33,050 nt of DNA, from IMG/VR virus record IMGVR_UViG_3300043420_000949, positions 1 to 33,050 of that record. One strand, written 5' to 3'. A program made the position numbers and the translations under genes. This document shows positions 1,657 to 18,148 of this stretch, piece by piece. The notes beneath the pieces are model-generated. The model saw nothing but the letters and a program-made list of their open reading frames with translations. It ran no database searches and was not told where the DNA came from. This DNA is from a virus. The number at the start of each line of letters is the position of its first letter. Position 1 is the stretch's first letter.

Positions 1657-1679
1657 TAAATAACAATTCTATAGGAGAT

Positions 1680-1685: not shown

Positions 1686-1692
1686 CAAAAAA

Positions 1693-2453: not shown

Positions 2454-2727
2454 TAACAGCGTGACAATTGCTGCAGCGAACCTCGCATTTACGAATCTCT
2501 TTTAATATAGTAGACCATGCATAGTCGCTGCGAATGAGATTGGAAACACTTGCTTTCTTATTATCCTCAATGTGATCAAACTGTAGCGCAACTGCGTGTT
2601 CATCATATCCGCAATCCACGCATCCATGCGCTAATTTGATCAAGCCTGCAAGACGCCATTTGGCTCCTCTTTTTCGCGCTCGCGGCGAAGGGAAAGCGTT
2701 AATGTGCCTATTAGATTCTAAACTCAT
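2389..2727 (-). CDS. HNH endonuclease-like protein (second copy)
   Basis: A 112-residue protein with the same arrangement as the 153-566 gene: CVDC knuckle (36-39), QFDH (49-52) as the likely catalytic His region, and KCEVRCSNCH (80-89). Its start codon lies inside the end of thyX (17-bp overlap), so it is translationally coupled behind it. Its 3' end overlaps the convergent coiled-coil gene by 65 bp. Local G+C is higher than its neighbours (35 of 60 in line 2641-2700), which suggests separate ancestry. Enzymes of this kind are often homing nucleases that insert beside essential nucleotide-metabolism genes, which fits the thyX neighbour. Confidence 0.8.
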   Translation of the reverse strand: MSLESNRHINAFPSPRARKRGAKWRLAGLIKLAHGCVDCGYDEHAVALQFDHIEDNKKASVSNLIRSDYAWSTILKEIRKCEVRCSNCHAVITSRRKRVDRESQPLDPDSAS

Positions 2728-3403: not shown

Positions 3404-3421
3404 AAAAAGCCTTTCATCTCT

Positions 3422-3436
3422 AGACCCTGCGGGTCT
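3422..3436 (-). other. Leader hairpin of the thyX operon
   Basis: AGACCC (3422-3427) pairs perfectly with GGGTCT (3431-3436) across a 3-nt loop, inside the 5' leader about 10 bases upstream of the thyX SD. It may affect mRNA stability or translation. No known riboswitch fold is recognised. Confidence 0.35.
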
Positions 3437-3494
3437 CAGTACCAGGAAGAGGAAAGAACATTCTTCTCTTCTTTCTTTCTTCTTATAGAAGAAA

Positions 3495-3523
3495 ATTGTA
3501 ATGACGTTTATGACACTTGTCAA
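3495..3523 (-). promoter_or_regulatory. Sigma-70-type promoter of thyX-HNH
   Basis: On the minus strand TTGACA (3523-3518) and TACAAT (3500-3495) are separated by exactly 17 bp. This is a near-consensus housekeeping promoter and would give a leader of about 85 nt. Unlike most plus-strand promoters here it has a perfect -35 box, suggesting early expression by host polymerase. Confidence 0.7.
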
Positions 3524-3558
3524 GAAAAGCAGATAACATTCGTGTAACTATGTAAACC

Positions 3559-3567
3559 TGATATAAT
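3559..3567 (+). promoter_or_regulatory. Extended -10 (TGATATAAT) of tail region
   Basis: TGATATAAT sits 31 bases before the ATG at 3599, with GAGGAG (3584-3589) as SD in the leader. No good -35 box is present. It is divergent from the thyX promoter about 40 bp away. Confidence 0.55.
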
Positions 3568-3598
3568 TAAATTAATATAGCATGAGGAGTTTTTGTGG

Positions 3599-3943
3599 AT
3601 GTTACCAGGCAAGTATAACATGATATGTCCTCAAGGGGCAACGTTTTCAAAGCAACTTACTTATGCTATTGATGGTGATCCTGTAGATCTAACTACTTAT
3701 GCTGCTCGTATGCAAGTTCGTGAAAAGCACACAAGCAAAAATGCAATATTAAGCATTACTACTGAAAATGGTGGGATTACGTTAGGCGATTCTGCTGGAA
3801 CTATTGATCTTTATATTGCTGATGAAAATACTGCCGCTATACCTCCCAAAAACTATGTTTATGATTTAGAACTTGTTTCTAGTGGAGAGGTTTATAGGCT
3901 TCTTGAAGGAAAATTTATTGTTACTCCAGAGGTGACTAGATAA
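3599..3943 (+). CDS. Phage tail/baseplate accessory protein (first copy)
   Basis: A 114-residue all-beta protein beginning MLPGKYNMICPQGATFSK, with a middle segment on allowed residues (DLTTYAARMQVREKH) and a closing LLEGKFIVTPEVTR. The pattern (polymer-like ligand, QGATF, YAARMQVR, GTI, LEG.F.V.PEVTR) is familiar from small tail-associated proteins found just before collagen-like fibre proteins in many phages. I chose the ATG at 3599, nine bases after GAGGAG, over a TTG at 3593. It partners the next gene. An equivalent pair occurs at 18181-19124. The exact virion position is not known. Confidence 0.7.
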   Translation: MLPGKYNMICPQGATFSKQLTYAIDGDPVDLTTYAARMQVREKHTSKNAILSITTENGGITLGDSAGTIDLYIADENTAAIPPKNYVYDLELVSSGEVYRLLEGKFIVTPEVTR

Positions 3944-4369
3944 TTGGCAGAGGTTACTGTAACGATAGCGGATTGTAATGTAGAAATTTGCATCGGAGAA
4001 TCTGGTCCACAAGGACCGCGTGGGTCACAACTTTTGTCGGGGAATACAGATCCCTCGGCAAGCATTGGCCTAATTGGAGACCAGTATATAAATACTAGTA
4101 CTGGGTATCTTTTTGGTCCAAAAACTGCTAGTGGTTGGGGAGTAGGAGTCCCGTTAGGCAATAACGATCCAGATGATCTGGGTCAAGTCTATACGCAAAC
4201 TTCTCCTTCCACAGTATGGAACATAGTTCACACCTTGTCCTTTGTTCCAAACATTATTATTGTCGATTCCGAAAAGAATGTTGTAGAAGGCGATTATGAA
4301 TATGTAAGTGATAATGAAATTACTGCAACATTTAATACTGCAATTTCGGGAAAGGCATACTTATCTTAG
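3944..4369 (+). CDS. Collagen-like short tail fibre protein (first copy)
   Basis: A 141-residue protein with a short collagen-like run (IGESGPQGPRG, residues 17-27), then a segment typical of fibre proteins (IGDQYINTSTGYLFGPKT, about 45-62). The second half (from about 80) resembles a small beta domain ending in NTAISGKAYLS, often found at the tips of tail fibres. Only a TTG is available as a start (no internal Met). GAGGTG lies nine bases upstream and the codon directly follows the preceding stop. It probably trimerises through the Gly-X-Y stretch. It is paralogous in layout to 18537-19124. Confidence 0.7.
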   Translation: MAEVTVTIADCNVEICIGESGPQGPRGSQLLSGNTDPSASIGLIGDQYINTSTGYLFGPKTASGWGVGVPLGNNDPDDLGQVYTQTSPSTVWNIVHTLSFVPNIIIVDSEKNVVEGDYEYVSDNEITATFNTAISGKAYLS

Positions 4370-4386
4370 AAAGGAGATGAGTTTAT

Positions 4387-5751
4387 ATGGCTAAAAGATT
4401 TCTTACCCACATTGATTTAGCGGGTAATCAAATCCTTAATGCTGCCTTCGAAAAACTCGCTGCAGATCCAACTACTGGCAATTTTGAGGGCCGCGTTTAT
4501 TACAACACAGCATCAGACGAACTTAGATTCTATGATGGCACTACATGGCAGGTTGTCGGAGACAAGATTGCTATTCAGGGAACTGAAAATGAGGTAACAG
4601 TATCATTTGCTGCTGAGACCAATACATATACAATCAGTCTTCCAGAAACCATTGCCGCTTCCATTACTGGAAATGCTGCAACAGCAACTAAGTTGGCTAC
4701 AGCCCGTGACATTGCGCTATCTGGCGACGTTACTGGTACTGCATCATTCGATGGTTCTGCCAATATCAGCATTTCAACAACAATTGCTGCTAATAGCGTT
4801 GCTCTAGGTACAGATACTACTGGGGATTATGTTGAAAGCATTTCTGCAGGAACTGGTGTAACTGTAACTGGAGGAACTGGTGAAGGATCTACTCCATCAG
4901 TTGCTATCGGTCAGGACGTTGCAACAACTGCAAGCCCAACATTTGCTGGGGTAGCAGGAGGCAATGTTCAGGTAGGAATTACTGGCGACAATGAGATTGA
5001 TACTGATGAAGGCAATCTAACCATTGATTCAGCAGGCGGAACGGTAACAGTTGATGACAATCTGATTGTTTCTGGAGACCTTACAGTTCAAGGAACTACT
5101 ACTACAGTAAGCACAGAAACTCTTCTTGTTGCAGACAATATTGTTACCCTAAACTCTAATGTAACAGGCTCTCCAACAGAAAACGCTGGCATTGAAGTTG
5201 AGCGCGGTACTGATCCAAACGTTGTACTTCGCTGGAATGAAACAGATGATACATGGGAAGCCACAAGAGATGGTTCAACATACCATGCACTTCTTCTTGA
5301 CGGCGATCCAATTACCGTTAATGAAATTACTGGATTCCAGGAAGATGTTGAAGATATTGTCGGTGGAATGGTTTCAGGAAGCAATTCTCTTTCTGTCACC
5401 TACACAGACAATGGCGCAGCAGCAGGAACCCTTGCTCTTGACACCACACTTGCTACAACAAGTTACTTGTCAAAGACTAGCGGCCTTGCTGTAGACATTG
5501 CAACCTTAGAAACAAAACTTGTAACAGATTCTTTCACCAAGAAGGCTACTGCAAATGTAGGAAATGGAACAAACACTTCATTTGCTGTATCACACAATCT
5601 TGGCACAAGAGATGTTCAGGTTCAGATATATGACAATGCCACATATGACACCGTTGAGTGTGACGTAGTGAGAACAGATGCAAATACTGTAACTGTTTCC
5701 TTTACTGTTGCCCCCACCAATGATGCATACCGCGTAGTTGTAATTGGATAA
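4387..5751 (+). CDS. Tail fibre protein with T4-like repeats
   Basis: A 454-residue fibre. The N-terminus (KRFLTHIDLAGNQILNAA...YYNTASDELRFYDGTTW) is a widespread phage fibre attachment module. The middle contains the Ser/Thr/Gly-rich shaft and the block DLTVQGTTTTVSTETLL...ADNIVTLNSNVTG (about 233-265) familiar from T4-like and cyanophage fibres. The C-terminal 75 residues (GNGTNTSFAVSHNLGTRDVQV ... APTNDAYRVVVIG) form a common small beta-sandwich tip domain. AAAGGAG upstream supports the start. A strong hairpin follows the gene. The 5816 gene shares its first residues (KRFL). Confidence 0.88.
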   Translation: MAKRFLTHIDLAGNQILNAAFEKLAADPTTGNFEGRVYYNTASDELRFYDGTTWQVVGDKIAIQGTENEVTVSFAAETNTYTISLPETIAASITGNAATATKLATARDIALSGDVTGTASFDGSANISISTTIAANSVALGTDTTGDYVESISAGTGVTVTGGTGEGSTPSVAIGQDVATTASPTFAGVAGGNVQVGITGDNEIDTDEGNLTIDSAGGTVTVDDNLIVSGDLTVQGTTTTVSTETLLVADNIVTLNSNVTGSPTENAGIEVERGTDPNVVLRWNETDDTWEATRDGSTYHALLLDGDPITVNEITGFQEDVEDIVGGMVSGSNSLSVTYTDNGAAAGTLALDTTLATTSYLSKTSGLAVDIATLETKLVTDSFTKKATANVGNGTNTSFAVSHNLGTRDVQVQIYDNATYDTVECDVVRTDANTVTVSFTVAPTNDAYRVVVIG

Positions 5752-5761
5752 TTTTGAGAGG

Positions 5762-5789
5762 GAGGGGGTAGAAAATAAACTACCCCCTC
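5762..5789 (+). terminator. Intrinsic-terminator-like hairpin
   Basis: GAGGGGGTAG (5762-5771) pairs with CTACCCCCTC (5780-5789) around an 8-nt A+T loop, directly after the fibre stop codon. The following bases are not a clear T-run. The core GGGGGTAG/CTACCCCC is reused in the hairpin after the RNR gene (22938-22964). Confidence 0.65.
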
Positions 5790-5803
5790 TCAATCAAAGA
5801 AGG

Positions 5804-5809
5804 TAGAAT
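5804..5809 (+). promoter_or_regulatory. -10-like TAGAAT, leaderless spacing
   Basis: TAGAAT ends six bases before the ATG at 5816, right after the hairpin. It is the same spacing as at 944, 1145, 18181 and 22983, though the hexamer is weaker and lacks TGn. Confidence 0.4.
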
Positions 5810-5815
5810 AGGTAT

Positions 5816-6709
5816 ATGACAAAAAGATTTCTAGTCCCTATTAGCACAGATCATATTGATCTTGATCTTAACAATGTCTTCCCCAATGCGGCGGGAAGAA
5901 TTAGATGGGATTCAGAAGAAGGAACTGTCGATCTTGGAATGAACAACAACGTTGTTCAGTCTGTTGGCATGGAGTTTTTCATGCCCCCCACAAAGAATAA
6001 TTCGGGTGTAGATATTCCAGCAGGGTCTTTTGTTATGGCAACGGGGGCACAAGGAGATAGAATAACTATCGCTAAGGCGGTATCTAACTCTACAGTAGAT
6101 GCAGAATATATGATCGGTATCGCTGCCCACACTATATTGGACGGCTCAGAATCTGGACTAATCACTACTCACGGAACAGTAAAAGATATCAATACAAGTC
6201 TATGGGAAATTGGAGATATTCTCTATCCCAATCCAGCAGTTCCTGGCGGGTTAACAAAAGTAGAACCATCTGCACCAAACATTAGACTTCCTATTGCTAT
6301 TGTTTTAAGAAAACATGAAAATACTGGTCGTATTTATGTGAGAATGGATGTCTCTCATAAATTATCGGAAACATTAGATGTAGATATATCTTCTCCTCAA
6401 AATAATGACGTTCTTTCTTACAATTCTACTTCTGGAATGTGGCAAAATACTCAGCCACCATCAATAGTTCCATCTGGCACAGACTACCCCTTAACAAATT
6501 TAACAAATGGGGAACTTTTTTATAATACGTCAAACGGAAGAACTGGAATATATTTCTCTAATATTTGGAAAGAATTTGCCTATGTTGGTGACTCTGCCTC
6601 TATAGACAATGGAAACTCTTTTACTCAGAATTTTGAAAATACTTTGGATGGAGGTAACTCATCGACAACAATATTCGTCGGAAGTTATGATGGAGGAGTT
6701 GGATTATAA
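5816..6709 (+). CDS. Tail fibre protein
   Basis: A 297-residue fibre protein. The N-terminal MTKRFLVPISTDHIDLDLN module resembles the start of the preceding fibre; next is a conserved block (GRIRWDSEEGTVDLGM ... VGMEFFMPPTKNNSG, about 27-65) and a beta-rich segment on properties such as AGSFVMATGAQGDRITIAKA. The later part has GELFYNTSNGRTGIYFSNIWKEF, a typical fibre shaft-to-tip element, and the C-terminus ends VGSYDGGVGL. The role is probably in side-fibre assembly or receptor contact. It appears to start a new transcription unit, with a -10-like box six bases before ATG and a hairpin upstream. Confidence 0.75.
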   Translation: MTKRFLVPISTDHIDLDLNNVFPNAAGRIRWDSEEGTVDLGMNNNVVQSVGMEFFMPPTKNNSGVDIPAGSFVMATGAQGDRITIAKAVSNSTVDAEYMIGIAAHTILDGSESGLITTHGTVKDINTSLWEIGDILYPNPAVPGGLTKVEPSAPNIRLPIAIVLRKHENTGRIYVRMDVSHKLSETLDVDISSPQNNDVLSYNSTSGMWQNTQPPSIVPSGTDYPLTNLTNGELFYNTSNGRTGIYFSNIWKEFAYVGDSASIDNGNSFTQNFENTLDGGNSSTTIFVGSYDGGVGL

Positions 6710-6716
6710 CATTTAA

Positions 6717-6725
6717 TGTTATAAT
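6717..6725 (+). promoter_or_regulatory. Extended -10 (TGTTATAAT)
   Basis: TGTTATAAT lies 17 bases before the ATG at 6742. Transcription would start about at the SD GAGGA (6731-6735), giving a very short leader. Confidence 0.5.
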
Positions 6726-6741
6726 TTGATGAGGAATTAAA

Positions 6742-7410
6742 ATGGCGACACTTATACAGGTTAGAAGAGATACGCAGGCTAATTGGACGGCTAACAACCC
6801 CATCCTTGCCGCTGGCGAAATTGCTTTTTCTACAGATCAATATAGAATTAAAATTGGTGATGGAACGTCAAACTGGTCAACACTTGACTACATGACAGCA
6901 ACTGCTACAGAAATTACAAACCAAATTAATGCTGCCATTTCTGGACTTATTGATTCTGCACCAGAAACACTTAACACTCTTAATGAAATTGCGGCGGCAA
7001 TCAATGATGACGCAAACTTCTTTAATACTGTTGCCACCATAAATTCTCCATCATTTACTGGCTCCATCACCTTAGACTCCAAAGTTAATCTAGATACATC
7101 TACAACATTGATTTCTGCAAATACCGCCACTACAATAAATGCATTGGCTGCTTCATCATATAGAAGCGCAGAATATCTTATCCAGGTTAGTCAAGGAGCA
7201 AAGCAAACTCTTTCCAAAGTAATTATGCTTCATGATGGAACTACCGCTAATATTGCTGAGTATGGTGTTATTGAATTGGGCTCACCAAGAATTCCTTTAA
7301 CCATCTCTGCAACCCTCTCAGGAGGAAATGTTTTACTTCAGGCAACAATCACGGACGCTGAAACCACAAGTGCTTCAGTAGAAGTAATTAGAACAGCAAT
7401 CGTGGTATAA
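6742..7410 (+). CDS. Tail fibre with Mtd-like N-terminal domain
   Basis: A 222-residue protein. Residues 1-50 (LIQVRRDTQANWTANNPILAAGEIAF...IKIGDGTSNW) match the N-terminal trimerisation domain of phage major tropism determinants and many fibres. Residues about 55-120 include the NTLNEIAAAINDDANFFNT motif. The C-terminal about 90 residues (SSYRSAEYLIQVSQG ... HDGTTANIAEYG ... VEVIRTAIVV) are a discrete tip domain also present at the end of the 20076 gene. No reverse transcriptase or template repeat for a diversity-generating retroelement was seen nearby. Its stop codon is embedded in the next promoter. Confidence 0.85.
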   Translation: MATLIQVRRDTQANWTANNPILAAGEIAFSTDQYRIKIGDGTSNWSTLDYMTATATEITNQINAAISGLIDSAPETLNTLNEIAAAINDDANFFNTVATINSPSFTGSITLDSKVNLDTSTTLISANTATTINALAASSYRSAEYLIQVSQGAKQTLSKVIMLHDGTTANIAEYGVIELGSPRIPLTISATLSGGNVLLQATITDAETTSASVEVIRTAIVV

Positions 7411-7411
7411 T
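7403..7411 (+). promoter_or_regulatory. Extended -10 (TGGTATAAT) overlapping a stop codon
   Basis: TGGTATAAT contains the TAA stop (7408-7410) of the preceding fibre gene. It serves the gene starting at 7447, whose SD is AAGGGG (7429-7434). Confidence 0.55.
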
Positions 7412-7446
7412 AAAAATAAATAAATAAAAAGGGGATAGTGAACCTT

Positions 7447-7743
7447 ATGGCAGACAAGAACTTCAAAGTAAAGAATGGCATAGAAGTTGGTGACAGAGAT
7501 ATTGTCACACCAGATGGTGTCATTACCCTTCCAACAGGAACTCACGAACTTGCTCCTACCGATTCCCCCGTTTTTACGGGTACAGTCGATGTAACAGGAG
7601 CCACATTTGATGGACTTGACGCTTTACCAGATCAGGCAGGAAATGCGGGGGAATATCTAACAACAGATGGAACTACTGCCTCCTGGGTGCCTCTCAATGT
7701 AGAGCCCGTAATTCACCCCATGTTCATTATAGGAGGAGTATAA
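7447..7743 (+). CDS. Short tail fibre/linker protein
   Basis: A 98-residue protein with the fibre start signature MADKNFKVKNGIEVGD, followed by SPVFTGTVDVTG (about 37-48) and ALPDQAGNAGEYLTTDGTTASWVPL (about 58-82), an element that in longer fibres sits just before the receptor-binding tip. Here the protein ends soon afterward, so the tip is supplied by, or was replaced by, the downstream propeller genes. The ATG at 7447 is preferred over an in-frame GTG at 7438, which lies too close to the SD. The next gene begins two bases after its stop with its own strong AGGAGG. Confidence 0.75.
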   Translation: MADKNFKVKNGIEVGDRDIVTPDGVITLPTGTHELAPTDSPVFTGTVDVTGATFDGLDALPDQAGNAGEYLTTDGTTASWVPLNVEPVIHPMFIIGGV

Positions 7744-7744
7744 A

Positions 7745-8989
7745 ATGGCAGAATCATATAAGAGATTAGGCACTATTAATGCTATTGATGATAGGGAAAA
7801 ACTTTTTTATATCGCTCCTGCTGACACACAAACTTTAATTTCTAATATTACTGTGACTAATCTATCATCACAAGACACTACAATTGATATCAATGTATAT
7901 GAAAGTGGAATTACGCAGCAAAGCGACTTAAATGATGCTTTTACTTCTCAATTTATTGTTGGAGGAAGAAACTCGGCGCAGGGATATTCAACAGATGGAA
8001 TAAATTGGGTCAACATAACATTGCCAATTAATGATTCATATGGGCACTGGCAATTCGATTTTGGAAATGGCAAGATTTTAGGAATTCTTGACTCAAATGA
8101 TTATCCAGTTATTGCCACAAGTGTAGACGCACTTGCATGGACTACTTCAACATTGTCATACTACCCTACAGGTGTCGCTTTTGGAAATGGAAAATTTGTT
8201 ATTCTTGCTGGCCAATACTCCCTTGTTTCTACTGACGCTGTTTCCTGGACAACAGGAACGCTTAATTATGGCTATGAGAATCTTTCATTCGTTAATGGTT
8301 TTTTTGCCGCAACCTCCTTTTGGGGAGCAACCCCTGGGGTGGTATTTTCTACAAATGGTACTACATGGACCCCAACAACATTGCCCTTTAATAATATGAT
8401 TTCAGAGGTTGCTTATGGAAATGGCGTATATGTTGCAGTAAGAGGATATAGAACATCTACTACTACAGACATAGCCGCATATTCTACTGATTTGATAACA
8501 TGGACTTCAACTACATTGTCAGCAATTCAGGGGTGGATGGGTGTTGCATATGGCAATGGAAAGTTTGTCGCTGTTGCTTACGGAAACCCTTCAAGTAACC
8601 AAACTAATCAAATTTCTATATCAACAGACGCAATAACATGGACGGCTGCAACAATATCTTCAGTCTCTCGCTGGCTGGATATAACCAATGATGGTGAAAA
8701 ATTTGTTGCTGTTGCTAGTGGTACAACAGCATCGTACTCTACCGATGGAATAACCTGGACATCAACATCTGTTCAGGGGAACAGCGAAAGAACCATTGCA
8801 TCTGAAAGATCATTGAAAAAATTTAATTCTGATGCTTCAAAAAGACTTTATAATGATTTAAAAATTCAAGCAAACGATACAAAAGTTCTTGAACCAGGAA
8901 TTGCCTTAGAATCAGGATCTTCAATAGTCATAAAAAATAATTCAGGTGGCAATTTAATATTTTCCGCCTTCGGAGTTGAACTATCATGA
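7745..8989 (+). CDS. Seven-bladed propeller tail protein A
   Basis: A 414-residue protein. Residues 1-55 (YKRLGTINAIDDREKLFYIAP...ITVTNLSSQ) and the last about 60 (NDLKIQANDTKVLEPGIALES ... IFSAFGVELS) together resemble the two halves of a single widespread phage beta-sandwich domain. Between them are seven degenerate Asp-box repeats (STDGINW, SVDALAW, STDAVSW, STNGTTW, STDLITW, STDAITW, STDGITW), each in a unit of about 40 residues with a YGNGKFVAVA-like strand. Seven units suggest a closed beta-propeller inserted in a loop. Likely role: tail-tip receptor or glycan binding. AGGAGG eight bases upstream fixes the start. It overlaps the next gene by four bases (ATGA). The fold is inferred from repeats. 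Confidence 0.82.
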   Translation: MAESYKRLGTINAIDDREKLFYIAPADTQTLISNITVTNLSSQDTTIDINVYESGITQQSDLNDAFTSQFIVGGRNSAQGYSTDGINWVNITLPINDSYGHWQFDFGNGKILGILDSNDYPVIATSVDALAWTTSTLSYYPTGVAFGNGKFVILAGQYSLVSTDAVSWTTGTLNYGYENLSFVNGFFAATSFWGATPGVVFSTNGTTWTPTTLPFNNMISEVAYGNGVYVAVRGYRTSTTTDIAAYSTDLITWTSTTLSAIQGWMGVAYGNGKFVAVAYGNPSSNQTNQISISTDAITWTAATISSVSRWLDITNDGEKFVAVASGTTASYSTDGITWTSTSVQGNSERTIASERSLKKFNSDASKRLYNDLKIQANDTKVLEPGIALESGSSIVIKNNSGGNLIFSAFGVELS

Positions 8990-11166
8990 CAGATTATAAA
9001 ATATTAGGACAGAGTGCCCCATCCAATCTTATATTTGAAGATGTTTATTCTACTCCGACTAATAAAACAGCACTAATTAGAGCAATAAACGTAATAAACA
9101 ATTCATCAAATTCATCAGACAAAATTAATATTGGGACAAAGGAAAATACTGGAGTACAACAGAGAGAACTTTTTATTAGACGCGGCCTTAATGGAATTGA
9201 CACTCAAATAAGCAAAGATGGAATAATTTGGGAGACAAAACTTAAATTCATTAATGGACAAACTGGATTTTTTACTTCTTATGCAGGCAATTTTGGACAA
9301 GATGTTTTGTTGAATAATTTTTCTTATATTGCAAAGAGTCAAGACCTTATTAATTGGACAGGTTGTACTATACCATTTTTCCTTTCAATCGGCGGAGTCG
9401 GCGCAATTGTTGCTTCTTCAGAAAGAGTGGTTGTTTCGGGTAATTATGGAGCCTATGCAACATCAACAGATTTAATAACTTGGGAGTCTAGTAGCGAAAA
9501 GATTGGATTTTTAGCACAAGGTGGAAGCAGTATTTTATACAATGATGGAAAGTTTGTCTCAGTTGGAGGTTCTGGTCCTATAGCATCTACCTCTACAGAC
9601 GGTATAACTTGGACCTTCTATACCGTAGGATCATTGTCATATCGTGATTATAGTAGAGGATCAGCCATTTATGGAGGAGGCACTTTGCTTTTAGTGCCAG
9701 GATATACAGCAGATGTAATTTCTTCTACAGATGCCATTACATGGACGATAAGTTCGACATTGGTTACTAATAGTAAACGATATGCATCTGCTGCACATGG
9801 AAATGGCATATTCCTTGTTGGATATGAAAATTCTTCTACTCAAGCGTCCACTTCTACAGATGGCATAACTTGGACGGTAAATTCTTCATTTTATAATTAT
9901 TACAGTAGTCTTTTTGGAGGTGTAAGTGGAATTAAATCAATTTCTTTTGGATCTGGTAAATTTGTTGTAATTCCTGACACCTATGGCGCCACTATATTTC
10001 CTTATTCTACAGATGCAATAACATGGAATCATTCAACATTGCCAGCATCTACTAATTGGATAAAAATTATTAGTGATGGTACTAATTTTTTTGCTCTTGC
10101 ACAGGATGGTTCTGGTGCCTACTCCACAGACGGAATAACTTGGACGGCACGATCTTTTCCAGAGGCATTTGCCTCCTCAACTCTGTCTTATAGCCGTATT
10201 AACTATGTAAATAACAAATATATAGTTACTGGATATTTTGGTAGTTATATCCCAAAGGCATATACAAGCACAGATGCAATAACTTGGACAGAAAATACAG
10301 CAAAATTTTTCTCTACCCATCCTACTGCATCCATTGCTTATGATGGTGTTTCGCAATTCATGGCCCTTGGAAACGGTTCAAATCTTCCATTCCGTTCCAC
10401 AGATTTGATTTCGTTTGATGGTCCATATGTAACTCCTAGAATGGGAAACAACACTACTACTTCCATACTTGAATACGGAAATGGGCTATTCGTCGCTTTA
10501 GATAGAGATACATACAATTTTGCCTATTCAACTGATGGAGTACTATGGACTGCTAGTACATTACCAGCAGCCCCTGTTGGTGATTTTTATGCTGGAAAAG
10601 TTATTTATAAAAACTCTAAGTTTGTTGCTATTGGAACTTCACAATTTTCATATATATCAACAGACGGTATTACTTGGTCACCTAACACCATGTCTTCTGT
10701 ATCAGTAACTTGGAGAGATATTGCCTATGGCAATAATGCCTTTATTTGTACAAAAGCAACACAGGACGGAGTATATTCAACAGACGGCATTACCTGGACT
10801 CCTATGACGTTCCCAACTGGAAATTGGTATGATGTAGCATATGGGGACAACAGGTTTATTGCTGTTGGATTGCCTGTAGGAGGGATCACCAGTAATGCTC
10901 AAGGAATTTCAGCATATTCAACTGATGGAATTACTTGGACTCTTAACGAGATTATAGACACTCATTATCGCGGCGAGATAAAGAATATTCAGGCATCTTA
11001 TACAAACATGGTTACCCAAAATGATTTATTTTTTGCTAATTATGAAATTTTACCAAATGAAACGGTAACAATTAAGGGTGGACACATAGTAGAAGAGGGA
11101 CACGATCTTGTCTTTATGTCAAAAAATGGCACAACTACATTCCACGCTTTCGGAGGAGAAATTTAA
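8986..11166 (+). CDS. Double-propeller tail protein B (14 repeats)
   Basis: A 726-residue protein with the same ends as its neighbour: an N-terminal half-domain (MTDYKILGQSAPSNLIFEDVY ... INVINNSS) and C-terminal half-domain (YEILPNETVTIKGGHIVEEG ... FHAFGGEI). Between them I count 14 Asp-box-like motifs (SKDGIIW, SQDLINW, STDLITW, STDGITW and so on, with STDLISF as the tenth), exactly twice seven. This predicts two seven-bladed propellers in tandem inserted into the sandwich domain. It is translationally coupled on both sides (ATGA before, TAATG after). Early repeats are the most diverged and late ones the most regular. Probable adhesin; sialidase activity is not supported because catalytic residues cannot be assigned. 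Confidence 0.82.
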   Translation: MTDYKILGQSAPSNLIFEDVYSTPTNKTALIRAINVINNSSNSSDKINIGTKENTGVQQRELFIRRGLNGIDTQISKDGIIWETKLKFINGQTGFFTSYAGNFGQDVLLNNFSYIAKSQDLINWTGCTIPFFLSIGGVGAIVASSERVVVSGNYGAYATSTDLITWESSSEKIGFLAQGGSSILYNDGKFVSVGGSGPIASTSTDGITWTFYTVGSLSYRDYSRGSAIYGGGTLLLVPGYTADVISSTDAITWTISSTLVTNSKRYASAAHGNGIFLVGYENSSTQASTSTDGITWTVNSSFYNYYSSLFGGVSGIKSISFGSGKFVVIPDTYGATIFPYSTDAITWNHSTLPASTNWIKIISDGTNFFALAQDGSGAYSTDGITWTARSFPEAFASSTLSYSRINYVNNKYIVTGYFGSYIPKAYTSTDAITWTENTAKFFSTHPTASIAYDGVSQFMALGNGSNLPFRSTDLISFDGPYVTPRMGNNTTTSILEYGNGLFVALDRDTYNFAYSTDGVLWTASTLPAAPVGDFYAGKVIYKNSKFVAIGTSQFSYISTDGITWSPNTMSSVSVTWRDIAYGNNAFICTKATQDGVYSTDGITWTPMTFPTGNWYDVAYGDNRFIAVGLPVGGITSNAQGISAYSTDGITWTLNEIIDTHYRGEIKNIQASYTNMVTQNDLFFANYEILPNETVTIKGGHIVEEGHDLVFMSKNGTTTFHAFGGEI

Positions 11167-12308
11167 TGGGCATTGAAAGAACATCAAAAACTGTTTTTGA
11201 CAATTTAACTGTTTCAAATGATATAAATGTTTCGGGTGACTTAGATGTTTCAGGAAATTTGGATGTTTCTGGAGATATCTCAGAATTGTCAGATTTATTA
11301 GGGAAAAGAATTGTTTTTACGACAAGCAATCAAATACTTTATTCTACAAATGGCCGTACTTGGAATCAAAATTCAATGTCATCCTCCTCTCTCCCAGATT
11401 CAGCCGCATTTGGAAATGGATTGTTTGTTGCTGTAAGGAATTACAATAATTCTGTTAGCATCTCCACAAATGGAATCACATGGACTTTGGGAACATTGCC
11501 TATATCTAGAACAAACGATGGAGGCATAACTTTTGGTAAAAATATCTTTGTTGTTACATCGGGAGAGCAAGACGTATCCTACTCCACAGATGGAATAACG
11601 TGGTCTTCCTCATCACTACCATCCACGGTGTTCGGTGGCAGGGTTGCTTATGGGAACGATGTTTTTGTTGCTATGTCATCACGCAACTATGCTGAAATGT
11701 CATACTCCACAGATGCAATAACCTGGACTGTTTCATCAACCATATCAGGTAGAAAATGGATTCCAGCGTATGGAAATGGATCATTTGTTGCGGTAGCCCC
11801 GAACTATAATCTATCCGCTATTTCTGCAAATGGAATAAATTGGTCTACTGGAACTATGCCTTCCGCAAATTGGAAAGATATTGAATACGGTAATGATAGA
11901 TTTGTTGCAATAGCATATAATTCAGATCAATCAGCCATATCTCAAGATGGCTTTGTTTGGACAGCGACCACATTACCCTCAGGCGCCTACCGCTGGCATA
12001 GTTTAAACTATGGAAATAATACATTTTATGCTATAGGTGCAATAATAAACACAAAAAATGTTCTCATTGCTTCTTCTACAGATGGCATCGCTTGGACGGC
12101 CACAACAGTATCAACAAGTATGACTAATGGTGCATGGCGTCTATCTGTTTATGGAGAAATAGTAAGTGAAAATCAATATCCAATAGCAGAACAGATCAAA
12201 GATTTACAATTAGAATTAAGGTCAACATCAACAAAAACAATTATAACGTCCCAACTAGCCCCCGCTGGAGGTAATGACGGAGACATTTGGCTACAATATT
12301 TTCTATAA
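11166..12308 (+). CDS. Propeller tail fibre C with VSG-repeat stalk
   Basis: A 380-residue protein. The N-terminus (about 14-42) is a run of six-residue repeats (VSNDIN, VSGDLD, VSGNLD, VSGDIS) of the type that forms beta-helical fibre stalks. It is followed by seven Asp-box-like motifs (STNGRTW, STNGITW, STDGITW, STDAITW, SANGINW, SQDGFVW, STDGIAW). The C-terminus (QLAPAGGNDGDIWLQYFL) is a common fibre ending. So the architecture is stalk, one seven-bladed propeller, then a short end piece. The start overlaps the preceding stop and is preceded by GGAGGAG. The different scaffold around an equivalent propeller, compared with genes A and B, shows the propeller behaves as a movable module. Confidence 0.82.
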   Translation: MGIERTSKTVFDNLTVSNDINVSGDLDVSGNLDVSGDISELSDLLGKRIVFTTSNQILYSTNGRTWNQNSMSSSSLPDSAAFGNGLFVAVRNYNNSVSISTNGITWTLGTLPISRTNDGGITFGKNIFVVTSGEQDVSYSTDGITWSSSSLPSTVFGGRVAYGNDVFVAMSSRNYAEMSYSTDAITWTVSSTISGRKWIPAYGNGSFVAVAPNYNLSAISANGINWSTGTMPSANWKDIEYGNDRFVAIAYNSDQSAISQDGFVWTATTLPSGAYRWHSLNYGNNTFYAIGAIINTKNVLIASSTDGIAWTATTVSTSMTNGAWRLSVYGEIVSENQYPIAEQIKDLQLELRSTSTKTIITSQLAPAGGNDGDIWLQYFL

Positions 12309-12317
12309 GGATATATT

Positions 12318-13307
12318 ATGACTGCATATGCAAAAGTTGGCGGAACATGGCAAGAACTTAACCCTACTAATGTAAAAATAGGATCTACTTGGTATCCCGT
12401 TGATAAGGGTTATGTCAAAGTGGGTGGAGCGTGGCAAGAATTTTATTCTGCAGTTTTCGTTCCTGAAATGTTTGCTACTGTGCAAGTGCCAGGTCCCTAT
12501 CCAAATACATCTTCACTCGCTGCTACCTCTAGTAATGGAGTAAGGTGGACTGCTAGAACACTTCCAATAAACCAAAGTTGGAGTTCTGTCTCTAATGCCA
12601 ACAATATCCTTTTTGCTTTGCCATATTCATCAACTACTGGGGCCCTCTCTACAGATGGCGTAACTTGGACCGCCATTCAGTTGCCAGCCTCAGGTAGTAT
12701 TTGGTATTCAGTAGTTTACGGTAATAATCTTTTTGTTATTGTAGGAAATAACTTTGGATTAGGGTATTCTACAAATGGAGTAACCTGGACTAACAGAACA
12801 ATGCCAACTTCTGGTGGATGGAGGGACGTTGCCTATGGGAATAATGTTTTTGTTGCTGTTAGACAAACTAGTTCTGTAGTAGCAATTTCTACTAATGGTA
12901 CAACCTGGACGCTTAGTAGTACAATGCCATCTAGCAGCGGTTGGAATTCCATCGACTATGGCAATGGCACATTTATTGTTACATCAAGATATAGCAATTT
13001 TGTCGCTGCGTCTACTAATGGCACAACATGGACGCTTAGAACTTTGCCAATAAATATGGATTGGCAGTCAATTGCTTATGGAAGTGGTAGATTTGTTGCT
13101 GTAGGAATTAATTCCTATGGAGCAACTACCTCTACTGACGGAATAACCTGGACGGCTGTAACATTGCCTAAAAGAATGTCTCAGAGGGTATCTCATAACA
13201 ACGGGGTATTTGTTGTTACGGGATCAGGTACTTCCACCGCTATCTATTCTACTGATGCTGCAACTTGGACCATTAGATCATTGCCAGCATATGGCAATTG
13301 GTTGTAA
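12318..13307 (+). CDS. Propeller tail protein D with KVGGTW repeats
   Basis: A 329-residue protein. Residues 1-43 hold three copies of a short repeat (AKVGGTWQEL, VKIGSTWYPV, VKVGGAWQEF), a known phage virion element. The rest has seven Asp-box-like motifs (SSNGVRW, STDGVTW, STNGVTW, STNGTTW twice, STDGITW, STDAATW), consistent with one seven-bladed propeller ending at the C-terminus (SLPAYGNWL). AAGGA precedes the ATG, which lies nine bases after the previous stop. The propeller units have the consensus W..V.YGNN.FVAV then STNG.TWT.RT.P. Predicted receptor-binding protein; the target is unknown. Confidence 0.82.
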   Translation: MTAYAKVGGTWQELNPTNVKIGSTWYPVDKGYVKVGGAWQEFYSAVFVPEMFATVQVPGPYPNTSSLAATSSNGVRWTARTLPINQSWSSVSNANNILFALPYSSTTGALSTDGVTWTAIQLPASGSIWYSVVYGNNLFVIVGNNFGLGYSTNGVTWTNRTMPTSGGWRDVAYGNNVFVAVRQTSSVVAISTNGTTWTLSSTMPSSSGWNSIDYGNGTFIVTSRYSNFVAASTNGTTWTLRTLPINMDWQSIAYGSGRFVAVGINSYGATTSTDGITWTAVTLPKRMSQRVSHNNGVFVVTGSGTSTAIYSTDAATWTIRSLPAYGNWL

Positions 13308-13333
13308 TATTTTTTTAAATATTGGAAATGCTG

Positions 13334-13339
13334 TATAAT
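13334..13339 (+). promoter_or_regulatory. -10 element TATAAT
   Basis: TATAAT, preceded by CTG so the TG is one base out of register, lies 30 bases upstream of the small ORF at 13370, which has its own SD (TTGGAG, 13359-13364). Confidence 0.5.
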
Positions 13340-13369
13340 TGACAAATAAAAATAATGGTTGGAGAATGA

Positions 13370-13465
13370 ATGCAGCATTATAAATTCGCACCCTATTCTA
13401 TAGCAGCGACAACATTTATCCAACGCGAAAAAATGACTAGAAACATACCAGGAGTATTGAGATAA
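13370..13465 (+). CDS. Small 31-residue ORF before propeller gene E
   Basis: The ORF begins MQHYKFAPYSIAATTF and ends NIPGVLR. Its stop overlaps the start of the next gene (TAATG), and TTGGAG five bases upstream gives it an SD. It fills an otherwise empty 160-bp gap. Its leader and first four codons (MQHY) closely match those of the glycosyltransferase at 14408 (ATGCAGCATTA in both, with TTGGA upstream). It may be a real leader peptide that couples translation to gene E, or a remnant left when a gene like the 14408 one was duplicated and cut down. No function is recognised. Confidence 0.45.
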   Translation: MQHYKFAPYSIAATTFIQREKMTRNIPGVLR

Positions 13466-14376
13466 TGAGCCTGTGGCTGGGTATATTAGGTGGGCAACAA
13501 CAACTTGACTTTACTCCCGTTTTTTTTGCAGTAGCAAACTCCTCTGACACATCCGCAGTCTCCTCAGATGGCATTACATGGGTTGTTGGTACAATGCCAT
13601 TACCAGGAACACCTTGGGCTTGGACTGGTTTCGCTTATGGTAACGGTACATTTGTTGCTGTGGCTTATGCTAACGCAGCCTATGCAGGATCTTCAGCAGA
13701 CTGTTTAAATTGGACTGGCAGAACAATGCCATCAAATGAAACTTGGTTTTCCGTAGCCTATGGCAATGGTACATTTGTTGCTATAGCAACCAAACGTGCC
13801 GCCGCTGCCACTTCCACAGACGGCATAACATGGACTGCTAGAACGATGCCATCAGTTCAGAATTGGAGACCTTTAACCTATGGCAATGGTACATTTGTTG
13901 CTATAGCATACCAGACCGCCGCCGCTGCCACTTCCACAGACGGCATAACATGGACTGCTAGAACGATGTCATCAAGTCGATGGTGGACCTCTGTCATCTA
14001 TGCCAGCGGCAAGTTTGTTGCTGTATCCGTTGGCGCAGGAGCCGCAACTTCAACAGACGGTATTACATGGACTGATAGAGCAATGTCAGTAAGCATAACC
14101 TACCGAGGACTCGCCCACGGTAACGGAACGTTTGTTGCTGTTGGAACATCATATAACTGTGCCACTTCAACAGACGGCATTACCTGGATTACTAGAACTA
14201 TGCCATCATTTGAGCATTGGGAATCTATTGCATATGGAAATGGCATATTTGTTGCTTCAGTCGGCACCCCTGGAGGCAGCAACGCCGCTGCCACTTCCAC
14301 AGACGGCATAACATGGACTGCTAGAACGATGCCACTAAGTAGACAATGGAAGTCCATGCTCTCAATTAATCAATAA
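13465..14376 (+). CDS. Propeller tail protein E with recent DNA repeats
   Basis: A 303-residue protein that is almost entirely propeller: a short hydrophobic start (MSLWLGILGGQQQLDFTPVFF) and seven units whose motifs read SSDGITW, SSADCLNW, then STDGITW five times. Each unit is about 40 residues with YGNGTFVAVA and RTMPS. At DNA level repeats are nearly identical: 13754-13873 and 13874-13993 agree at 99 of 120 positions, and a 52-nt run at 13800-13851 recurs exactly at 14283-14334. This points to recent unit duplication or gene conversion. The start overlaps the stop of the 31-residue ORF. Likely role: variable receptor-binding tip. Confidence 0.82.
   Translation: MSLWLGILGGQQQLDFTPVFFAVANSSDTSAVSSDGITWVVGTMPLPGTPWAWTGFAYGNGTFVAVAYANAAYAGSSADCLNWTGRTMPSNETWFSVAYGNGTFVAIATKRAAAATSTDGITWTARTMPSVQNWRPLTYGNGTFVAIAYQTAAAATSTDGITWTARTMSSSRWWTSVIYASGKFVAVSVGAGAATSTDGITWTDRAMSVSITYRGLAHGNGTFVAVGTSYNCATSTDGITWITRTMPSFEHWESIAYGNGIFVASVGTPGGSNAAATSTDGITWTARTMPLSRQWKSMLSINQ
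13754..13993 (+). repeat. 120-bp tandem repeat pair inside propeller gene E
   Basis: Two adjacent 120-bp units (13754-13873 and 13874-13993) match at 99 of 120 positions by hand count, including exact runs of 51 nt (13798-13848 with 13918-13968) and 32 nt (13757-13788 with 13877-13908). A related copy is at 14283-14334. Each unit encodes one 40-residue blade. Confidence 0.85.
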
Positions 14377-14385: not shown

Positions 14386-14407
14386 ATTTTCAACGATTGG
14401 ATAGTTA

Positions 14408-15067
14408 ATGCAGCATTACGACATTCTCATAGCAACACCTGGCGCTATGATGGAAGCACAATATGTAAAAAGTTTAGTAAATACCCTCGCAGAATGTGAT
14501 AAAAGAGGGCTAACTTATAAGTTTCTTAATGCCTATGGGTCACTTGTTCATCATGCCCGTGAATTAACGTGTAGCGGTGGCGAGGGAATGGAATTGAATC
14601 CAGACCATAAGGGTCCAATGGGAGATAGAGTAACCTATAACAAGATCTTTTGGATAGATTCAGATATTTCGTGGGAACCCTGGCAATTTTTCAAGATCTA
14701 TGATTCAGATTATGATGTATGTACAGGAGCATATTTGCTGGCAGATGGAATTACCACATCTGTCCATGCCTGGGGTAAAATTGGAGGAATTCCAAAGCAT
14801 GAAATCATGCAAATGACCGAACCCTTAAAGGTACAAAGTATTGGTTTTGGTTTTGTAGCCATGAAGTCTGGCGTGTTTGAAAGACTAGAAAGGCCATGGT
14901 TTAAGCATTATTTGCAGGCGGTACAAAGAAGCGACGGCACAACAATAGAAGATTCACTAGGAGAAGATATCTCCTGGTGTATCAATGCTTATAAGGCGGG
15001 AATAGATATTATGTTTGATCCTTCCGTTTTAGTAAAGCACATGAAGAAAATACCAATTTCATGGTAA
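14408..15067 (+). CDS. GT-A-fold glycosyltransferase-like protein
   Basis: A 219-residue protein with features of a nucleotide-sugar-dependent GT-A transferase: a DILIATPG start strand, a DxD motif in FWIDSDISW (D84, D86) for the metal-nucleotide, a VCTGAYLL strand (104-111), GEDISWC (185-191) as the likely catalytic-base region, and LVKHMK (208-213) with a late His typical of metal binding. It is about the size of the catalytic domain alone. It heads the carbohydrate cassette and ends in the promoter of the next gene (stop shared with TGGTAAAAT). The substrate cannot be read from sequence. Targets may be virion proteins or host glycans. Confidence 0.72.
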   Translation: MQHYDILIATPGAMMEAQYVKSLVNTLAECDKRGLTYKFLNAYGSLVHHARELTCSGGEGMELNPDHKGPMGDRVTYNKIFWIDSDISWEPWQFFKIYDSDYDVCTGAYLLADGITTSVHAWGKIGGIPKHEIMQMTEPLKVQSIGFGFVAMKSGVFERLERPWFKHYLQAVQRSDGTTIEDSLGEDISWCINAYKAGIDIMFDPSVLVKHMKKIPISW

Positions 15068-15094: not shown

Positions 15095-15412
15095 ATGGCA
15101 AATAGATATGAAATTGAAGAGGGTACACACGCCATTCGTGTATATTATGATGGCGCTGATGTTCCAGGTCTTTATCAACCACATTGGCCCAACGGTATGC
15201 CATGGGCTAGCGCAGAAGAAGCAGAAGAATGGGCACAACTATTCATTGCATCTATTGAAGATGAGGCTGCTCCTTACGCCCCAGGTGGTCCAGGGGAGCC
15301 AGGAACTCCAAAGCCAACTCCAGAAGAGATTGCAGCAATGCAGGCTGAAATGGAGGCTAGAGAGGCTGAAATGGAAGCACTCCGCAATGCTGAACTTCCA
15401 CCAGCAGAATAG
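15095..15412 (+). CDS. Small acidic protein, possible tail accessory
   Basis: A 105-residue protein. The N-terminal half (RYEIEEGTHAIRVYYDGADVPGLYQPHWPNG...PWASAEEAEEWAQLF) looks like a small globular domain. A Pro/Gly linker (about 62-76) follows, then a Glu/Met-rich helix (about 78-102) likely to be coiled coil. I recall similar short proteins beside fibre genes of aquatic phages, without a known function. It has one of the best SDs in the window, its own promoter, and a terminator-like hairpin after it, so it is probably expressed well as a single-gene unit. Confidence 0.65.
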   Translation: MANRYEIEEGTHAIRVYYDGADVPGLYQPHWPNGMPWASAEEAEEWAQLFIASIEDEAAPYAPGGPGEPGTPKPTPEEIAAMQAEMEAREAEMEALRNAELPPAE

Positions 15413-15431: not shown

Positions 15432-15456
15432 GGCTAGGGCTTGATTTGTCCTAGCC
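15432..15456 (+). terminator. Intrinsic terminator
   Basis: GGCTAGG (15432-15438) pairs with CCTAGCC (15450-15456) around an 11-nt loop, followed by TTTAT. It lies 20 bases after the stop of the small acidic protein gene. Confidence 0.7.
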
Positions 15457-15460
15457 TTTA

Positions 15461-15469
15461 TGATATTAT
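15461..15469 (+). promoter_or_regulatory. Extended -10 (TGATATTAT)
   Basis: TGATATTAT directly follows the terminator and would start the sulfotransferase-glycosyltransferase-epimerase transcript. Confidence 0.45.
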
Positions 15470-15492
15470 TGAGCAGAATAGATGGGAAATCA

Positions 15493-16305
15493 ATGGATAA
15501 AAAGTTCTTTTTCATGGCTGGTCTGCCGCGCTCAGGTAGCACCATGCTATCTTCAATATTGAATCAAAATCCAAATGTTTATGTGTCTCCACAATCAGTA
15601 TTACCAAATACTTTGGGGGCGATGTATAATCAATATCAGAGCAAGGAGAATAAAGATTCTGACCAATGGGATAGTATTTATCGTGTAATTGATACTGTTA
15701 TTCCAACATTTTATGGTGGGCATAAAGAAAAATATATCATTGATAAGAACTTTTCTTGGCTAGATCCGCACCCATATGTTATTCTTGAGCATCATCTCAA
15801 GAATCCTATTCGTGTCATTTGTCCCGTTCGAAACATCTTAGACATTCTTGCATCATGGAACAGGCTTTGTGAAAATGATCCTAAAAATTCATATGATCCA
15901 GAGATAAACAAGGTAGATAGAACAAAGAGGCCGATGGCAGATAAAAGAGCAGATTACTTCATGACTATGGGCGGGGATGAAAATGGAATTCGCAATAGCA
16001 TAGAAGGAATAAAAAGAATTCTTTATCCAGAATTTAAAGACAAGATCATGCTCGTTGATTATGATGAACTAACAACCAATACAGAAGAAACTGTAAAAAT
16101 GGTGTATGATTTTCTTGAGATCCCACACTTTGAGGCAGATCTAAATAATCTTTCTACTCCACACATCTACACAGATCATTGGGGAGTAAAGGGGCATCAT
16201 AGAGTAAAGAAAACAGTTGAAAGAGAGAATTATATCCTAGAAGATATTTTTTCTCCATCTATCATCAAGAAATATTCAGGACTAGAATTTTGGAAGGAAA
16301 TCTAA
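15493..16305 (+). CDS. Sulfotransferase family protein
   Basis: Transfers sulfate from PAPS to an acceptor such as a sugar or Tyr. The 270-residue product has the 5'-phosphosulfate loop GLPRSGST (10-17), and the 3'-phosphate site ICPVRNILDILASW with R113 and S121 eight apart, as in known members. The remaining helical body includes DYDEL near 185. I start it at ATG 15493 because the upstream ATG (15460) overlaps the terminator-promoter region and adds no family sequence. It is coupled to the next gene by TAATG. Sulfotransferases are rare in phage genomes. Here it probably works with the adjacent GT and epimerase to make or modify a sulfated sugar. Confidence 0.82.
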   Translation: MDKKFFFMAGLPRSGSTMLSSILNQNPNVYVSPQSVLPNTLGAMYNQYQSKENKDSDQWDSIYRVIDTVIPTFYGGHKEKYIIDKNFSWLDPHPYVILEHHLKNPIRVICPVRNILDILASWNRLCENDPKNSYDPEINKVDRTKRPMADKRADYFMTMGGDENGIRNSIEGIKRILYPEFKDKIMLVDYDELTTNTEETVKMVYDFLEIPHFEADLNNLSTPHIYTDHWGVKGHHRVKKTVERENYILEDIFSPSIIKKYSGLEFWKEI

Positions 16306-17243
16306 TGGAAAACGTATTCCCCTGGGATAACAATAATTTAGGCGGTACAGAAGTAGCAATAAAATGGTTTCATAAAAACGTATTACCAGAAATAAAAAAT
16401 ATTAGAGATTATCGATGTGTTTCTGTTCCAGGTGCCCCACAGCCATTAGAAGAACTGTTCGACGGGCAGAGAAATATTATTTGGCTACACCTTACTCCAG
16501 ATCAGGTAGACGATAACGGCATGAATGTCCTAAAAAGACAGGATTTCCTTGATACGGTAGATCACTTTATAGTGCTGTCAAACTTCCATAAGAAGCAGAC
16601 AGCCATACAATTAGGCATTAACCCAGATATGATTCACGTTGTTGAATATCCTCTTTACGGTGCTGAGTTTAATAAGTCTAAGTTTGATAATGTTGATAAG
16701 GTGAAGATTATTCATGCTTCTCAAGCCGTCCGTGGTCTTGAGGTTCTTTTGCAGGCAACTATGCAAATAGACGACGATTTTGAACTAGATATCTATAACG
16801 ATTTCTACCCTGAACAATATGACAATCCAGCACTAGATGAATTGTTGAAGGATGAAAGAATTACATTCTATGGAAAAACTCCTAGAAATACATTGATGAA
16901 GAAGTTTGCTGATTCTCATATTCATGCATATCCCTCAATTTTTGAAGAAACAAGTTGTCTTGTTCAGGCAGAAGCACTAGCATCTGGCAATCTATGCGTA
17001 TATAGCAATGTTGGAGTATTGCCAGAAACATCGCGGGGACATGGAATGATGGTTGACTTTACCTCTAAGAGATCAATGGAAGAACTTGTATCTGAATATG
17101 CAGATGCTCTAAGAGAGGCCATTTCATTGGTAAAGAATGGCGAATTTGATCCATCAGAGCAAATAGAAGACATTTTAGAATATCGAAATCCTGAAAGAAT
17201 CGTTCAGCAATGGCTAGAGTTTGATAAAAGCCTAGGAGAGTAA
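16305..17243 (+). CDS. GT4-type glycosyltransferase
   Basis: A 312-residue GT-B protein. The N-terminal half has GGTEVAIKWFHK (13-24) and a Rossmann-like core. The C-terminal half carries VKIIHASQAVRGLEVLLQA (133-151), HAYPSIFEETSCLVQAEALASG (207-228) with the GT4 E-x7-E motif (E215, E223), and VYSNVGVLPETS. Such enzymes are retaining transferases using nucleotide sugars. The product is shorter than typical full-length GT4 enzymes because the N-domain is compact. Start and stop overlap both neighbours (TAATG at each side), giving a tight three-gene operon. The acceptor is unknown. Confidence 0.82.
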   Translation: MENVFPWDNNNLGGTEVAIKWFHKNVLPEIKNIRDYRCVSVPGAPQPLEELFDGQRNIIWLHLTPDQVDDNGMNVLKRQDFLDTVDHFIVLSNFHKKQTAIQLGINPDMIHVVEYPLYGAEFNKSKFDNVDKVKIIHASQAVRGLEVLLQATMQIDDDFELDIYNDFYPEQYDNPALDELLKDERITFYGKTPRNTLMKKFADSHIHAYPSIFEETSCLVQAEALASGNLCVYSNVGVLPETSRGHGMMVDFTSKRSMEELVSEYADALREAISLVKNGEFDPSEQIEDILEYRNPERIVQQWLEFDKSLGE

Positions 17244-18148
17244 TGAAGTCTCTCGTTACTGGTGGTGCTGGATTCATTGGATCTCATTTAGTAGATAGAC
17301 TTATCAATATTGGTCACGAAGTTGTTGTTATTGATAATGAATCTGCTGAATCAAATTCTATGTTCTATTGGAATGATAATGCCAAAAACTATAAATTAGA
17401 TGTATGTGATTATGAAAATACAAAAGATTTATACGCTGGCGTAGACTATGTTTTTCATTTGGCAGCAGAAGCAAGGATTCAGCCATCCATCGGAAACCCT
17501 CTTCCAACAGTAAATTCCAATTTTATTGGAACTACGTCTGTTCTAGAAGCCGCGAAAAATGCTGGGGTAAAAAGAGTAATTTATTCCTCAACATCCTCAT
17601 CATATGGAAGAAATTCAGTTCCTAACCATGAAGATCAGCAAAATGATTGTCTGACTCCATATTCTGTATCAAAAGTAGCGGGGGAAGATATGTGTAAAGT
17701 CTATTACAAATTATATGGACTAGAAACTATATCCCTAAGATATTTTAATGTATATGGAGAAAGACAGCCCATAAAAGGAGAATATGCTCCAGTTATAGGA
17801 CTATTTCATAGGCAATTAAGTAATGGGCATCCAATGACAGTTGTTGGAGATGGAACACAGCGCAGAGATTTTACTCATGTAGATGATGCTGTCGATGCAA
17901 ACATTTTGGCGGCAACTAAGGATATAGATAGCAAACACTTTGGTACTATTTTTAATATTGGTAGAGGAAAGAATTATTCTATCAATGAAATAGTGGAACT
18001 CTTTGGCGGAGAATCAATAAATATACCAGCAAGACCAGGAGAATCAAAAGAAATATTAGCATCTAACCTAAAGGCCAGGGCCGTTCTTGGGTGGGAACCA
18101 AAAGTTCACCTTAAAGACTATATACAGTCATTAAGAAATAATCAATAA
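17243..18148 (+). CDS. Extended-SDR NAD-dependent sugar epimerase/dehydratase
   Basis: A 301-residue protein with the NAD-binding TGGAGFIGS (GxxGxxG, G7/G10/G13), a D31 at the end of strand 2 favouring NAD, SSTSSSYG (115-122), and the catalytic Y140-x3-K144 (YSVSK). RYFNVYGERQ and GDGTQRRDFTHVDDAVDA are typical of UDP-hexose 4-epimerases and relatives such as WbpP. The closest activity (UDP-Glc/Gal, UDP-GlcNAc/GalNAc epimerase or a dehydratase) cannot be fixed without alignment. It would supply the sugar donor for the adjacent transferases. Full length, no disruption; coupled to the GT4 gene by TAATG. Confidence 0.88.
   Translation: MKSLVTGGAGFIGSHLVDRLINIGHEVVVIDNESAESNSMFYWNDNAKNYKLDVCDYENTKDLYAGVDYVFHLAAEARIQPSIGNPLPTVNSNFIGTTSVLEAAKNAGVKRVIYSSTSSSYGRNSVPNHEDQQNDCLTPYSVSKVAGEDMCKVYYKLYGLETISLRYFNVYGERQPIKGEYAPVIGLFHRQLSNGHPMTVVGDGTQRRDFTHVDDAVDANILAATKDIDSKHFGTIFNIGRGKNYSINEIVELFGGESINIPARPGESKEILASNLKARAVLGWEPKVHLKDYIQSLRNNQ

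Follow-up and report, generated by a model that had tools for sequence, protein, structure and literature searches.

Predicted seven-bladed s-Asp-box propellers on a row of conserved anchor genes in an uncultured Stanwilliamsviridae-like phage

Five adjacent genes with regular repeats of a short Asp-box motif lie in a 33,050-nt stretch of viral DNA (IMG/VR record IMGVR_UViG_3300043420_000949, positions 1 to 33,050), referred to here as the window. The window (GC content, 39.6%) matches Streptomyces phage BoomerJR (Stanwilliamsviridae) in the portal (47%), ribonucleotide reductase (RNR; 63%), protease, major capsid protein, and ThyX, and the order RNR, portal, protease, capsid is common to both. 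The host is likely an aquatic actinobacterium.

The upstream boundary of the array is a virion gene of the tail fiber type with an Mtd_N domain (positions 6742 to 7410, plus strand; PF18454, E = 2.3e-17, and tail PHROGs); farther upstream, a gene at 4387 to 5751 matches head-decoration and virion-structural PHROGs. Downstream, the variable array ends at a conserved phrog_1574 neighbor (glycosyltransferase-like by PHROG match; 14408 to 15067, plus strand), followed by a conserved 105-amino-acid (aa) gene (15095 to 15412, plus strand) without a family match, whose homologues directly adjoin propeller genes in at least seven contigs (L012, L023, L025, L031, L036, L066, and L069). A terminator-like hairpin (15432 to 15456, plus strand; 9 pairs, 6 of them G-C, short T tract), identified by pattern match only, is a candidate end of the transcription unit. 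A run of sugar-related genes at 15460 to 18148 (phrog_27463 with a weak NoeE sulfotransferase match, glycosyltransferase phrog_2170, and nucleotide-sugar epimerase phrog_540) adjoins the Ser/Thr-rich propellers, and virion glycosylation is possible. An open frame of 1,211 aa at 22983 to 26618 has homologues in two related contigs, L020 (29%) and L096 (33%), and no PHROG or NCBIfam match. Other receptor-binding genes may lie in the part of the phage genome outside the 33-kb window.

All five genes are on the plus strand. Gene A (7745 to 8989) encodes a small beta-rich anchor (aa 1 to 55 and about 360 to 414) into which a seven-repeat s-Asp-box propeller is inserted (aa about 68 to 345). Its stop overlaps the start of gene B (ATGA; 8986 to 11166), in which an anchor of its own type (aa 1 to 55 and about 665 to 726) is likewise split, here by 14 repeats (13 strict boxes and one with W to F). 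The stop of B overlaps by one base the start of gene C (11166 to 12308), which has an MGIERT N terminus, a seven-repeat propeller (7 boxes), and the C terminus GGNDGDIWLQYFL. Gene D (12318 to 13307) begins with a "KVGG-W" anchor (phrog_25859-like, E = 6.7e-7), followed by a seven-repeat propeller (7 boxes) with a short last strand. Gene E (13465 to 14376) is almost only a seven-bladed propeller (aa about 18 to 300), as seen in an AlphaFold model and by Foldseek. In the 157-bp spacer ahead of E (13308 to 13464), a short open frame starts MQHY, like the downstream phrog_1574 gene, and 12 of its bases are identical to 14407 to 14418; this frame is perhaps a scar from the gain of E.

The five reading frames are intact and lie exactly where the original prediction had placed them. 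The counts of 7, 14, 7, 7, and 7 given there hold as repeat units, whereas literal matches to S-x-[DN]-[GAL]-x-x-W number 7, 13, 7, 7, and 6; one box of B (STDLISF, aa 471, W to F) and one of E (SADCLNW, aa 77, G to C) each miss the literal pattern by a single substitution but stand in register, and therefore the units come to seven or, in B, 14. Boxes are spaced by 36 to 51 aa, mostly 39 to 45. The observed counts are far above chance, since shuffled proteins (2,000 shuffles each) had 0.04 to 0.06 matches on average and 2 at most, and six-frame translation of the remaining window outside A to E gave a single match; the repeats are real. DNA identity among blades averages 0.59 to 0.62 both within and between genes, which argues against recent amplification of blades inside the window; only E (0.70) looks somewhat homogenized.

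The motif had been taken for an Asp-box variant one residue shorter than the consensus, and it is indeed short, but not new: it is the s-Asp-box, S/T-X-D/N-X-X-X-W/F/Y, named by Quistgaard and Thirup in 2009, situated in the loop that connects strands 3 and 4, and described in five-bladed GH32/GH43 proteins, usually in one or two blades (PMC2716378). As of 2009, no n-bladed structure with n boxes was known, and seven-bladed and uninterrupted tandem seven-bladed forms (GH74) were (PMC2716378). Genes A to E repeat this same motif, with the box in the predicted strand 3-4 loop; unlike in GH32/GH43, all seven blades of the window propellers carry it and the ring would be closed by a C-terminal strand 1. 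No GH32/GH43 profile match was found in the window proteins.

Structure was predicted with AlphaFold and compared by fold search. The model of E (24 aligned sequences) has a pLDDT of 92.3 and a pTM of 0.89, and its strand list, from which (not from coordinates) the blades were assigned, resolves into seven blades of four strands each. In the closing blade, the first strand is C-terminal (aa 295 to 300) and the other three are N-terminal (20 to 24, 29 to 33, and 39 to 43). The boxes of the E model sit between the predicted C and D strands, and the motif is accordingly placed in the strand 3-4 turn, by the model in E and presumptively by homology in A to D. By E value, the best Foldseek matches of E in the PDB are six-bladed kelch proteins (TM about 0.6). 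Among the PDB matches listed, the best seven-bladed one is streptogramin lyase 2qc5 (TM 0.72, 2.7 Å), and Ycf48 of the Asp-box group (2xbg, 5ojr) is also among the fold matches. In the BFVD, the best match is A0A6J5SXG5, a DUF6242 protein of an uncultured phage (TM 0.80, 39% identity). Searched at the sequence level with phmmer, the PDB yielded no convincing relative of solved structure. The original prediction of closed seven-bladed propellers is borne out directly for E, and the fold and blade number of E and of the family are strongly supported; the same ring is suggested for A, C, and D by their homology and by their equal numbers of units. The model of B (16-row alignment; pLDDT 62, pTM 0.45) is too poor to use, probably owing to poor alignment of its 14 repeats. 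Two propellers in tandem are plausible for B, given the 14 repeats, the single-propeller orthologues described below, and the GH74 precedent of uninterrupted tandem propellers. In A, C, D, and E, seven boxes in seven blades, with predicted closure by a C-terminal strand, would constitute an alternative to classical closure.

A scan of uncultured viral contigs gave at least 599 pattern matches, with at least 381 confirmed, and 80 loci were kept. Blades were counted as boxes plus flanking A-B hairpins in non-redundant complete clusters from the relatives and the window. Among the matches listed, seven blades were found in 88 of 143 such clusters, 14 in one, and 21 in two; 8, 10 to 13, and 15 to 20 were found in none, and 1 to 6 or 9 in the other 52. 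We read most of these 52 as probable splits at missed degenerate boxes; such a box made the counter divide B itself into 9 and 4. Across the distant viruses among these matches, the seven-blade rule holds. The commonest form among the matches listed (67 clusters) has six boxes with hairpins on both flanks, which is the classical closure; another 16 clusters, among them window genes A, C, D, and E, show seven boxes and lack a flanking hairpin. Six-bladed propellers were considered for relatives with six boxes (61 complete open reading frames) and rejected, because seven A-B hairpins are present and the missing box falls at the closure.

Arrays of propellers recur in these contigs. Four adjacent propeller genes are found in L018 and in L021, and contigs L037 and L046 share an identical sequence (2 to 12124) with a 4,040-aa open frame in which 48 boxes make up eight seven-blade clusters. 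Six propellers side by side had been called unusual in a phage tail region; this agrees with the few matches among cultured phages, but the repeat is present in hundreds of uncultured viral contigs, and three or more propellers occur in 15 of 73 loci among the matches listed, so such arrays are not unique. Matching named phages are Synechococcus phages B23, S-CBWM1, S-CAM9, and S-8S55, Limnohabitans phage DC31, Stenotrophomonas phages CM1 and RAS14, Xanthomonas phage XacN1, and the metagenome-assembled DSL-LC01. A search of viral contigs for close relatives of B found none. Similar repeats are common in bacterial genomes, and the fold alone therefore does not imply host binding.

What the original prediction missed is that propellers are gained and lost on conserved anchor genes between close relatives. 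An uninterrupted homologue of the anchor of A and B is phiPsal1_021 (111 aa) of Pontimonas phage phiPsal1, annotated "putative virion structural protein" and located in a tail module near tape measure and tail fiber genes. In contig L020, whose phrog_1574 neighbor is 91% identical to that of the window, gene A (9474 to 9827; 117 aa) is propeller-free, with an anchor 58 to 60% identical to that of window A, and gene C (11014 to 11148) is a propeller-free 44-aa open frame that keeps the MGIERT start and the GGNNGDIWLTY end of window C. Genes B and D (11158 to 12141) of L020 hold one propeller each (7 boxes). Contig L180 and its near-copies L184, L185, and L179, whose phrog_1574 copy is 92% identical to that of L020, have one propeller each in A, B, and C and are without D and E; E is absent from L020 as well. 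Orthologues of B with 7 repeats were found in L020, L013, L036, L096, and L180. One locus accordingly carries six propellers in the window, two in L020, and three in L180.

DNA alignment of the window with L020 gave blocks of 74 to 79% identity at the anchors and downstream, broken at the propellers. Recent loss is the simpler reading for L020 A, since L180 A, with an anchor 78 to 84% identical to that of L020 A, does carry a propeller. Between L180 B and L020 B, the anchors are 78 to 87% identical and the propellers 51%; the propeller of E is nearest to that of L020 B (61% identity) and shares no more than 41% with any of its own paralogues. In a tree, the anchors separate cleanly into A and B clades (94/96); most of the propeller tree is unresolved, its labels grouping by phage, so the case for swapping between positions rests on the pairwise identities. 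Propeller-free anchor orthologues and variable copy number are observed directly, and propellers as cassettes on a conserved anchor chassis are new here. With two or three rings in the same genes of close relatives, the rings look like exchangeable host-recognition modules, and we infer recombination as the mechanism of exchange.

Most variable positions fall in the loop segments D-A and B-C, which in a standard up-down blade are on the face opposite the boxes. In close pairs, pN/pS was 0.43 in these loops versus 0.12 to 0.20 in the box, A-B turn, and B and C strands. Such a pattern is consistent with a binding face that varies on a conserved scaffold and is not proof of positive selection; pooled loop pN/pS is below 1, which gives no overall sign of such selection. 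In one pair of near-identical phages (L093, 8001 to 9176; L094, 6189 to 7364), 14 nonsynonymous and 2 synonymous changes fall in the propeller of gene B, versus 0 and 5, respectively, in its anchor (Fisher P = 0.001, for a single pair picked post hoc). One changed tract in this pair resembles another blade (STTLPV), a hint of conversion between blades. No RVT_1 (reverse transcriptase) match was found in six records, all possibly fragments.

Several known systems resemble the array in part. DUF6242 (PF19755) shares the seven-blade fold and matches 11 of 24 family members. Comparison of the propeller parts with Pfam and PHROGs gave weak or subthreshold matches, mainly to DUF6242 (9.8 to 20.1 bits in B, D, and E, under the gathering threshold of 29 bits; no match in A and C); unlike A0A6J5SXG5, the window has different anchors and an array of five genes. 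Ycf48 is similar in being an Asp-box-group propeller but is a photosystem II assembly factor with about 16% identity, and no sign of that function was found in the window. A homologous propeller gene in Actinomycetia phage DSL-LC01 (L089, 8479 to 9351) is annotated as a photosystem II assembly factor, likely through fold resemblance only. Propellers serve as (putative) receptor-binding heads on the virions of phi11, PRD1 (P2), and PhiKZ (gp131C), the last of which is seven-bladed like those of the window (PMC4901313). The heads of phi11 and PRD1 differ in being five-bladed, and all three differ in having a single propeller per chain and no known cassette gain and loss on an anchor row.

The best explanation, which we consider probable as a whole, is that A to E encode virion adhesins with seven-bladed s-Asp-box heads that are exchangeable between related phages; exchangeable adhesins are a likely function. 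The five products of this uncultured, Stanwilliamsviridae-like phage would be part of the virion, probably in association with the tail, each bearing a seven-bladed propeller as recognition head, with probably two on B. A first strand from the C terminus would pair with strands 2, 3, and 4 from the N terminus, and through this closure all seven blades would keep their box. One face would be the scaffold, formed by conserved boxes in the C-D turn and NG turns in A-B, and the other would present the variable D-A and B-C loops for binding to ligands on the host surface, of which glycans are the most likely. The heads would be modular, being gained, lost, doubled, or swapped on the conserved anchor row between related phages, and such exchange would tune or widen host recognition. 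A role in host binding is probable, and a multivalent adhesin, as originally proposed, is a reasonable reading.

A place on the tail is suggested by the Mtd_N domain and tail fiber PHROGs nearby and by the homology of the A/B anchor to phiPsal1_021. Instead of forming the receptor-binding device of the tail, the same proteins might be head-decorating or fiber adhesins for glycans or particles in the environment, similar in concept to Ig-like decorations of capsids: the gene at 4387 to 5751 also matches head-decoration and virion-structural PHROGs, and "virion structural" anchors leave their location putative. We regard this as unlikely, as the nearest PHROG and Pfam matches beside A are of the tail fiber type and Mtd_N, and the phiPsal1 anchor gene comes after the tape measure and tail fiber genes.

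Less likely still is that the genes encode carbohydrate-active enzymes (depolymerases or glycosidases) of the Asp-box superfamily. Most of the Asp-box propellers known so far are glycoside hydrolases (GH33, GH58, and GH74; PMC2716378), but no glycoside hydrolase catalytic profile in Pfam or NCBIfam matched the window proteins, and the blades are near-equivalent, with no unique insertion visible as a catalytic-site carrier. Neutral repeat expansion, in which propellers amplify easily and drift into an array without a selected multivalent function, appears equally improbable: all lineages continuously give rise to new propellers by amplification of single blades (PMC9218822) and copy number differs between the relatives, yet five intact frames hold exactly 7 or 14 units, seven blades are kept across distant viruses among the matches listed, and the box, A-B turn, and B and C strands are under constraint.

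Phages usually vary recognition by fiber-tip swaps or by hypermutation with diversity-generating retroelements (DGR). Going beyond the adhesin reading, we tentatively propose that a clade of aquatic actinobacteriophages carries a fixed anchor row (A, B, C, and D) as sockets for highly variable seven-bladed s-Asp-box propellers, free of retroelements. Recombination at the conserved DNA of the anchors and at conserved blades would insert, remove, double, or exchange these propellers, so that each phage would bear two to six heads. Propeller recognition domains were already known in phages; the full-box closure and the plug-in pattern are new. Seven of seven boxes with closure by a C-terminal strand 1 is an arrangement absent from the 2009 survey of the fold (PMC2716378). 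Whole propeller domains come and go within conserved small virion proteins, including clean propeller-free orthologues, and the array makes testable both how new receptor-binding heads evolve and whether several different heads per virion widen host range.
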